Assembly: GCA_016844605.1 (NCBI GenBank) | Contig: JAENJD010000002.1 | Coordinates: forward strand, 1 to 46,810 | From: Steroidobacteraceae bacterium | GTDB taxonomy: Bacteria > Pseudomonadota > Gammaproteobacteria > Steroidobacterales > Steroidobacteraceae | DNA length: 46,810 nucleotides | Direction of reading: 5' to 3' | Shown here: piece by piece, positions 44,411 through 46,810 of the stretch | Layout of the letters: every line of letters starts with the position of its first letter | Numbering within the stretch: position 1 is the stretch's first letter | Notes under the pieces: generated by a model | The model's input: only the letters and a program-made list of their open reading frames with translations | Told to the model about the DNA's origin: nothing | Database searches by the model: none | Program-made: the position numbers and the translations under genes

Positions 44411-44878
44411 TCACGGCACGATCGGCACGGGCGCGCTGGTTTTCAGGGTCTCGAGCACGAGGCTCGAACGCACGTCACGCACGCCGGGAAGCTTCAGAAG
44501 CTGGTGCAGCGTGAACCGCCCCAGGGCGTCGAGATCCGGCACGACGACGTGCAGCAGGAAGTCCATTTCGCCGGTCATTGCATGGGCCGCGACGACTTCC
44601 GGCCGCTCATCGAGCGTGCGCCGGAAACGCTCGATGACATCGTCGGTGTGGCGCTCGAGCTTGATCTGGATATAGGCGGCCACGTTCTGGCCCACACGCT
44701 TCGGATCGAGAACGGCGGCATAACCGCGGATGATCCCGGCCTGTTCAAGGCGCCGGACGCGGCGCGTGCAGGGAGTCGGCGAGAGCCCCACGCGCTCTGC
44801 GAGTTCGACGTGGCTCAAGCGGCCGTCGCGCTGCAACTGCTCGAGGATCTTCACATCCGTGCGGTCGATGGCGTTCAT
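44411..44878 (-). CDS. Lrp/AsnC family transcriptional regulator
   Basis: A regulator of 155 residues. The N-terminal helix-turn-helix is at about residues 20-42 (LSHVELAERVGLSPTPCTRRVRRLEQAGII), and the C-terminal RAM/AsnC ligand domain runs from about 65 (VAAYIQIKLERH, HAMTGEMDFLLHVVVPDLDAL). It is divergent from the fused E1 gene, the position of BkdR-type regulators that respond to branched-chain amino acids or oxoacids. That target is an inference from position. The ATG reads MNAIDRTDVKILEQL, the normal family start. Confidence 0.92.
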   Translation of the reverse strand: MNAIDRTDVKILEQLQRDGRLSHVELAERVGLSPTPCTRRVRRLEQAGIIRGYAAVLDPKRVGQNVAAYIQIKLERHTDDVIERFRRTLDERPEVVAAHAMTGEMDFLLHVVVPDLDALGRFTLHQLLKLPGVRDVRSSLVLETLKTSAPVPIVP

Positions 44879-44933: not shown

Positions 44934-45014
44934 GTACTCGCACAAGAAATTAGCCAAAAAACACCCCGCATGCATGAGTACGATGACGGGTCGCAGGGCC
45001 CGAAGGTATTCCCA

Positions 45015-46810
45015 ATGCCCGCCAGCGCAAGCAGGCCCGTTCAGACCGGATCCGCCGCGACCATCGACTGGCGCCGCGTGCTGCGCACCACATTCCTTTC
45101 GCGCGCCCTGGACCGCCTCGAAGAAACCCGGCTGGTGCCGGAGCGCAAAGTGCTCTACCAGTTCTCGGCACGCGGGCATGACGTGACCCAGGCCTTGCTC
45201 GGCATGCAGCTGACCGGCGCGCGCGACGCAGTCGCGCCGTATTACCGCTCACGGCCGCTTGCACTCGCACTGGGCCTGTCCGCAGAGGAAGCGCTCGCGT
45301 CCACGATGATGCGCACACAGGGCATGTCGGCCGGCCGGGACATCGGGGTCGTCATCAACCTGCCGAATCGCCAGGGTCCCTGCATGCTGCCGGCCTGCGG
45401 CGGCGTCGGTACGCAGTACACGCCCGCGACCGGTTGGGCGCAGGCGCTCGCCTACCGTGTGCGCGTGCTGGACGACCAGCAATGCGCGGGCAGCATCGCA
45501 GTCGTCCACGGTGGTGATGCGTCAACTGCGACCAATGGATTCTGGGCTTCGCTCAATATCGCGACGACCGGACGGCTGCCGCTTCTGTATTACATTGAGG
45601 ACAACGGCTACGGAATCTCGGTCAGGTCGGACCGCCAGACACCGGGCGGCGACATCGCCGCGAATCTGGCCTCGTTCCGCAACCTGATAATTTTCGATGG
45701 CGACGGCTCGGATCCCGGCGCTGCCGCGACCTTGATCGAGAAATCGATTGCCGCGGTGCGTGCGGGCGATGGACCGGTATTGCTGCGCCTGACGGTGCCG
45801 CGCCTGTCGGGGCATTCGGGACAGGACACGCAGGCCTACAAGTCATCCGAAGAAGTGGCGGCCGAGCAGGCACGCGATCCGCTGCTGCGGCTGCGTGCGC
45901 AAATCGTCCCGCGAATCGTGGTGGAGGCCGAGTGGAAGGCGTTGGAATTGGAAGCTCAGGCGGAAGTCGAGGCTGCACTGCTGCGCATCGAGGCGCGACC
46001 TGCGGCCGAAATGGACGCAGTGACACGCTATGCATTCACGGAATATCGCGATGACGGCTCGCTCGAATTGCAGCGGCAGGGCGGTCTTCTTGCTGAAGGC
46101 ATCCTGCCTGCTGCTGGCAGCGATGTCCCGCGGCCGGATGGCCCGCGCATCAATATGCTGACGGCGATCCGACGCACGCTGGAACACGAGCTCGAGGTCA
46201 ATCCGCGTGTGCTGGTTTTTGGCGAGGATGTCGGGCGCAAGGGCGGCGTGCACGCGGCGACCCTCGGTCTGCAGGAGCGATTCGGCGAGCAACGCGTCTT
46301 CGATACCAGCCTGTCAGAGGAGGGCATCATCGGCCGCGCAGTTGGCATGGCGCTGGCGGGGCTGATGCCAGTCCCCGAAATCCAGTTCCGCAAGTACGCC
46401 CCGAAATCCAGTTCCGCAAGTACGCAGAACCGGCCGCCGAGCAGCTGCATGACTGCGGTACAATGCGCTGGCGCACGGCCAACCGCTTTGCCGCACCGAT
46501 GGTCGTGCGGATGCCTGGCGGCTTCTTCAAGTGCGGCGACCCCTGGCACAGCCAGTGCAATGAAGTGGAATTCCTTCATGCAACCGGCTGGCGGCTTGCG
46601 ATGCCTTCCAATGCCGAAGACGCCGTGGGGCTTTTGCGCACGGCCATGCGCGGCAATGACCCGGTCGTCTTTTTCGAGCATCGTTCGCTGCTCGATGGCG
46701 CGGCGGCAAGGCGCCCTTATCCCGGCGACGATTTCATGCTGCCATTCGGCATCGCGCGCACGCTTCGCAGCGGCTCCGAGCTCACGGTCGTCAGCTGGGG
46801 CGCGATGGTC
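45015..46810 (+). pseudogene. Fused 2-oxoacid dehydrogenase E1 alpha/beta, frameshifted, partial
   Basis: The start is ATG 45015, with AAGGT seven bases upstream. The alpha part (about 1-330) shows MSAGRDIGVVINLPNRQG, the thiamine diphosphate motif HGGDASTATNGFWASLNIA (Gly-Gly-Asp at 166-168) and EDNGYGISVRSD. The beta part begins near residue 379 (INMLTAIRRTLEHELEVNPRVLVFGEDVG). At 46373 the frame is broken by a 26-base tandem duplication. If one copy is removed the frame reads on as EIQFRKYAEPAAEQLHDCG, MVVRMPGGFFKCGDPWHSQ and VVSWGAMV to the window end, a normal beta part. With both copies the shifted frame has no stop before the edge. E1 decarboxylates 2-oxoacids and acylates the E2 lipoyl group. 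Confidence 0.85.
46373..46424. repeat. Perfect 26-base tandem duplication inside the E1 gene
   Basis: Bases 46373-46398 and 46399-46424 are identical (each starts CCCCGAAATCC and ends GCAAGTACG). Twenty-six is not a multiple of three, so the second copy moves the downstream reading frame. Deleting one copy restores an uninterrupted E1 beta protein. Confidence 0.97.

Follow-up and report, generated by a model that had tools for sequence, protein, structure and literature searches.

The exact 26-base tandem copy that breaks a fused 2-oxoacid dehydrogenase E1 gene in this Steroidobacteraceae bacterium was probably created during assembly, at a contig end where strains are mixed, and the real gene would then carry the unit once. 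The window, i.e. the whole stretch of 46,810 nucleotides that was analysed, is an entire contig (C121) of a metagenome assembly (G000) that comprises 138 contigs and 2,094,862 bases and is 87.32% complete. The contig stops at position 46810, 386 bases past the end of the second copy. The features that bear on the finding are as follows.

44411 to 44878, reverse strand: divergent Lrp/AsnC-type regulator; its NCBIfam matches are below cut-off, and a relative of it is present in 64 of 80 orthologous loci.
44970 to 46398, forward strand: open frame of the fused 2-oxoacid dehydrogenase E1, comprising its alpha part (E1_dh) and the first half of the pyrimidine-binding domain in beta.
46301 to 46810, forward strand: dovetail in which the end of C121 overlaps that of contig C36 (12437-12920, reverse strand); 484 columns, 19 mismatches and one 26-base gap.
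46373 to 46398, forward strand: first copy of the 26 bases, which continues the frame of E1 alpha and early beta.
46399 to 46424, forward strand: second, exact 26-base copy, which shifts the frame; neither C36 nor any of the 97 orthologous loci has it.
46425 to 46810, forward strand: E1 beta domain continued in a different frame, which runs off the contig end.

The original prediction had placed an exact 26-base tandem duplication at 46373-46424, and both the coordinates and the 100% identity of the two units were confirmed. The run of identity is 27, that is, one extra base matches beyond the unit. No other perfect tandem pair with a unit between 14 and 300 bases exists in the window, and a search of the window for direct repeats of at least 16 bases lying within 200 bases of each other reported this one alone. 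A chance origin of such a pair is negligible. The contig contains no N at the copies, and the unit is a normal part of the conserved coding sequence rather than a dedicated repeat. A single base of microhomology is present where the units end, so that replication slippage between short flanking repeats is not suggested.

As 26 is not a multiple of three, the second copy breaks the fused E1 frame, as had been proposed. E1_dh and the first half of Transket_pyr are encoded in the frame before the pair, and the second half of Transket_pyr follows the pair in a different frame. The shifted frame meets no stop up to the end of C121 and stays open for 613 codons; the break is thus a frameshift with no immediate truncation. 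The remaining part of Transket_pyr and Transketolase_C are found on C36, and in relatives all of these domains lie in one open frame. The presence of E1_dh, Transket_pyr and Transketolase_C in one chain identifies the protein as a fused alpha-beta E1.

A search of the same assembly with positions 46300-46500 revealed a second place for this sequence, at the very end of C36. There the unit occurs once, and the 26-base alignment gap falls exactly at the duplication. It had been claimed that removal of one copy restores the beta frame, and C36 bears this out: with its single copy, the frame continues open through the site to the end of E1 (270 amino acids, with Transketolase_C). The first 99 bases of the overlap are identical, and the two contigs part at 46400, after a single base of copy 2; this base also comes next after the unit in C36. 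All 19 mismatches lie after the gap, in 412 columns. In the one-copy frame, 18 of them are at third codon positions and one is at a first position, and together they cause a single amino-acid change (M/I) and no stop. Ten of the 19 differences are crowded into the 40 bases right after the duplication (46426-46465), and the other nine are spread over the next 345. The tail of C121 and C36 are clearly different haplotypes. Since nearly all differences are silent, the one-copy frame appears to have been in use on both haplotypes until recently. Because C36 represents another haplotype, its single copy does not prove a single copy in the strain of C121 itself.

A tail acquired from another species was considered and rejected, as a block-wise comparison with the rows of 18 relatives (11 of them distinct) yielded no donor. 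Over the first 41-51 columns past the shared prefix, several relatives match C121 slightly better (up to 82.9% / 86.3%) than C36 (75.6% / 80.4%); in every later block, C36 is nearest to the C121 tail among these 18 rows. For L003, the closest relative among the matches listed, the rows can be compared up to about column 220 only, as an insertion sequence (IS)-like sequence starts there.

The artefact could have formed by a joining error. The upstream piece would end in the 26 (27) bases that are common to both haplotypes, the haplotype fragment that continues C121 would start with the same 26-27 bases, and the two pieces would be joined end to end with their overlap unmerged, which leaves a tandem copy. 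The copy would then be the product of the joining step and not of the organism. The 99-base common prefix would be the size of an assembly-graph overlap for reads of about 100 bases, and may reflect the k used. At the far end, however, the last 81 bases of the C36/C121 overlap are identical, not 99, so this graph picture is incomplete. As expected of an artefact of this kind, the extra copy is close to where the contig stops, a second assembled piece (of the other haplotype) has the unit once, and the copy is missing from all 97 loci of relatives described below.

The same observations were weighed against a real, very recent 26-base duplication in one strain, which would disable E1 there and leave strains of the C36 haplotype intact. 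We regard this as a tentative alternative, clearly behind the artefact. The copy is perfect in a contig stretch that is free of N, and the haplotypes otherwise show nearly only silent differences in the one-copy frame, a pattern that is equally expected if the mutation is very recent. However, the copy sits near the contig end and at the very branch point of C36 and C121, the unit ends share one base of microhomology only, and none of the 97 relatives' loci described below carries the copy.

The relatives comprised the best 80 of 372 confirmed matches together with the listed matches of a further search, and the statements on relatives apply to these. Ninety-seven of 109 loci were used, and 12 more distant E1 proteins (L101-L112, 28-36% identity) were left out. 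The 97 loci represent 90 distinct sequences, seven pairs being identical over the compared stretch. In all 97 the unit is single and in frame. The check on close relatives that had been proposed for the extra segment thus gave a uniform answer: 0 of 97 loci carry an extra copy. Past the unit, the frame remains open for at least 229 residues in 94 of the 97 loci, for 173 in L014, which has an N run there, and for 55 in L003 and in L084, which share one sequence. Tandem flags near the end of the compared stretch of L014 were disregarded because of this N run.

These counts also bear on a reversible on/off switch (phase variation), in which the 26-base repeat would expand and contract. Perfect repeats of about this length can recombine, and one-copy and two-copy forms do occur in the same genome bin. 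Yet each form belongs to a haplotype of its own, the repeated stretch is conserved coding sequence of an ordinary kind, and the variation in repeat number among relatives that a switch should leave is not seen in any of the 97 orthologous loci. The gene, which encodes a catabolic enzyme, is moreover no typical contingency locus. We consider a switch highly improbable.

The closest relative among the matches listed, L003 (Baikal-deep-G150), is 94% identical over residues 8-477 and has one copy of the unit; the G001 sequence does not differ from it in the part that was compared. At the end of contig C94 of G001 (L003 5524-5669), the E1 gene enters the multi-copy IS-like sequence 115 bases past the unit, at the contig end. 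This sequence is found at 10 places in G001, the E1 place included, and has no match in G000. Its reverse strand resembles the final part of an integrase-type transposase (rve_3, E 4.5e-5, 23.6 bits, below the cut-off of 26.5). A search of G001, which is listed as 75% complete, for the rest of E1 gave no high-identity match: a 96% match spans residues 1-72 of 270, and the next best is at 43%. It is possible that E1 was independently damaged in this sister species, or that the contig merely ends in a repeat present in one strain. The former would mean that the gene may be dispensable in the lineage, which would speak for a real mutation in C121 and renders real gene loss in the lineage conceivable, against the artefact. 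A broader reading, in which intact one-copy and broken two-copy forms of an E1 supplying phenylacetate catabolism coexist in the population and the sister species lost E1 separately to an insertion element, would imply repeated loss or a reversible switch of a catabolic step in a small-genome lineage; we consider it improbable.

A further possibility is that C36 carries a paralogue, so that C36 and C121 are different loci. The 19 differences in the 412 columns after the gap could be read in this way, but the start of C36 falls in the gene itself, in the terminal 510 bases of C121. In relative L005, a single contig carries MoeA, orf122, Lrp, E1, E2 and PaaA in this order, and thereby joins the C121 side (MoeA, orf122, Lrp) to the C36 side (E2, PaaA) in one run. 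A query with the alpha part gave three matches in G000, and those listed include the window and, on C120, a match at 31%. We reject the paralogue on the synteny in L005 and give it the least weight of all the readings.

Similar neighbours were found around the other orthologous genes. Within flanks of up to 4 kb per locus, some contigs being shorter, E2 is present in 77 of the 80 loci (best 80 of 372 matches), the Lrp relative in 64, PaaA in 20, and MoeA and orf122 in 4. PaaA lies on the same strand after E2 in 18 of the 20 loci that bear it (again among the best 80 of 372). On C36 (L113 9793-12920), the fused E1, E2 and PaaA lie in a row on the same strand. E2, which has lipoyl, E3-binding and catalytic domains, comes after E1 and is followed by PaaA. 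Further on, on the same strand, C36 encodes a PaaD zinc-ribbon protein, a flavin/2Fe-2S reductase (PaaE-like), an enoyl-CoA hydratase, a thiolase, a 3-hydroxyacyl-CoA dehydrogenase with a hydratase domain, and an aldehyde dehydrogenase/MaoC protein (PaaZ-like). The PaaE-like and PaaZ-like proteins are presumed to be such from their domain make-up, and a further reading frame lies between PaaA and PaaD.

An element of about 270 bases that resembles a miniature inverted-repeat transposable element (MITE), with terminal inverted repeats of about 31-37 bases, lies between the PaaD-like and PaaE-like genes (L113 7935-8213). Its copies are 84-92% alike, and 12 places in G000, its own included, cover at least 220 of the 277 query bases; the element also lies in L150, L160, L167, L169, L130, L117 and others. 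Fragments or more distant copies were found in four of six other genomes of the genus. At the gathering score, Rfam gave no match in the C36 and L150 copies of the element.

The E1 resembles those of the alpha2beta2 type in its E1_dh, Transket_pyr and Transketolase_C domains and in the E2 with lipoyl, E3-binding and catalytic domains that follows it; its alpha and beta parts are fused in one frame in 80 loci (best 80 of 372 matches). It differs from them in that it reaches no NCBIfam cut-off and in that its neighbourhood is one of phenylacetate catabolism. None of the NCBIfam models matched by E1 attains its cut-off: the alpha part in the window scores 126.3 bits against TIGR03181 (pyruvate dehydrogenase E1; cut-off 411.35), and the relative L005 scores 209.9 bits against NF008854 (pyruvate dehydrogenase E1; cut-off 454). 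With the intact L005 protein as query, the best solved relatives by sequence are the beta subunits of pyruvate and 2-oxoisovalerate dehydrogenases. A branched-chain or related oxoacid had been put forward as the substrate; a branched-chain one is not supported, as E1-E2 on C36 adjoins a phenylacetyl-CoA epoxidase gene. The position of E1-E2 directly before this gene suggests a substrate such as phenylpyruvate and phenylacetyl-CoA as the product. A narrow search of the open-access literature on such a phenylpyruvate/phenylacetyl-CoA link gave no match with all terms, which does not show its absence from print.

Other perfect tandem copies were found in the assembly. A G000 sample of 522,526 bases (the window included; 5,234 N) contains perfect tandem units of 26, 24 (a low-complexity tail), 60, 17 and 17 bases, and 705,313 bases of the relatives' loci contain one, of 18 bases; for the repeat BLAST, pairs of at least 60 bases were considered. 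The excess of tandem copies in G000 over the control loci is suggestive, with too few events to decide. The 60-base unit is a perfect, in-frame tandem copy in the middle of contig C130 (L132 5984-6103), in a gene resembling a PLP-dependent aminotransferase. It is absent from all three relatives of the genus with a match (11 searched), and may be natural or artefactual. As a copy private to this assembly it favours the artefact at the E1 site; being mid-contig and in frame, it can as well be natural, a second event of the kind that a real mutation in E1 would represent. One N run in the sampled stretch of G000 has flanks that do not overlap. An Rfam scan of the window and two stretches gave no match in the window, and a glycine riboswitch aptamer (RF00504, 68.6 bits) was detected on contig C4 (L150 5239-5326).

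Errors of this kind are known. In the published assembly of Vibrio fischeri ES114, sequence that is present once had been doubled, which Mandel, Stabb and Ruby (2008, PMC2330054) attribute to imperfect contig ends that were misassembled in tandem and not overlapped. Those expansions, like the E1 copy as we read it, are single in the organism, and they came to light when another strain was compared. They differ in that they are 318-1264 bases long and highly similar, come from a genome sequenced in about 2001 and were disproved by PCR; the copy in G000 is of 26 bases, exact, in a metagenome assembly, and known from the assembled sequence. Strain-level variation is named in the abstract of PMC7945042 as a cause of fragmented genomes. 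Contig breaks at strain variation in short-read metagenome assemblies resemble ours, in which the ends of C36 and C121, both from one bin, overlap but carry different haplotype variants; the 26-base duplication at the branch point sets G000 apart.

Taken together, the evidence favours the artefact: the site is at a contig end, C36 has a single copy, the contigs part one base into copy 2, the differences between them are nearly all silent, and 97 of 97 orthologous loci are single-copy. The synteny in L005, the single base of microhomology, the private copy on C130 and the printed precedent (PMC2330054) point the same way; against this, the copy could be real in one strain. Of the three readings that the original prediction had offered, assembly error is thus the best supported (contig end, single-copy C36, 97 of 97 loci), and the reversible switch finds almost no support, with extra copies in 0 of 97 loci and the two forms on different haplotypes. 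We rank the artefact as the probable explanation, a fresh private mutation second as a possible but less likely one, and a switch far below both.

Should the copy be real, one strain would carry a new loss-of-function mutation of an ordinary kind. Close to where a contig stops, an exact tandem copy that breaks a frame can mimic a switch or a pseudogene, and here a single search of the assembly itself was enough to find the overlapping contig with its one copy. As a by-product, the link between C121 and C36 places the fused E1 and E2 genes directly before the paa genes.
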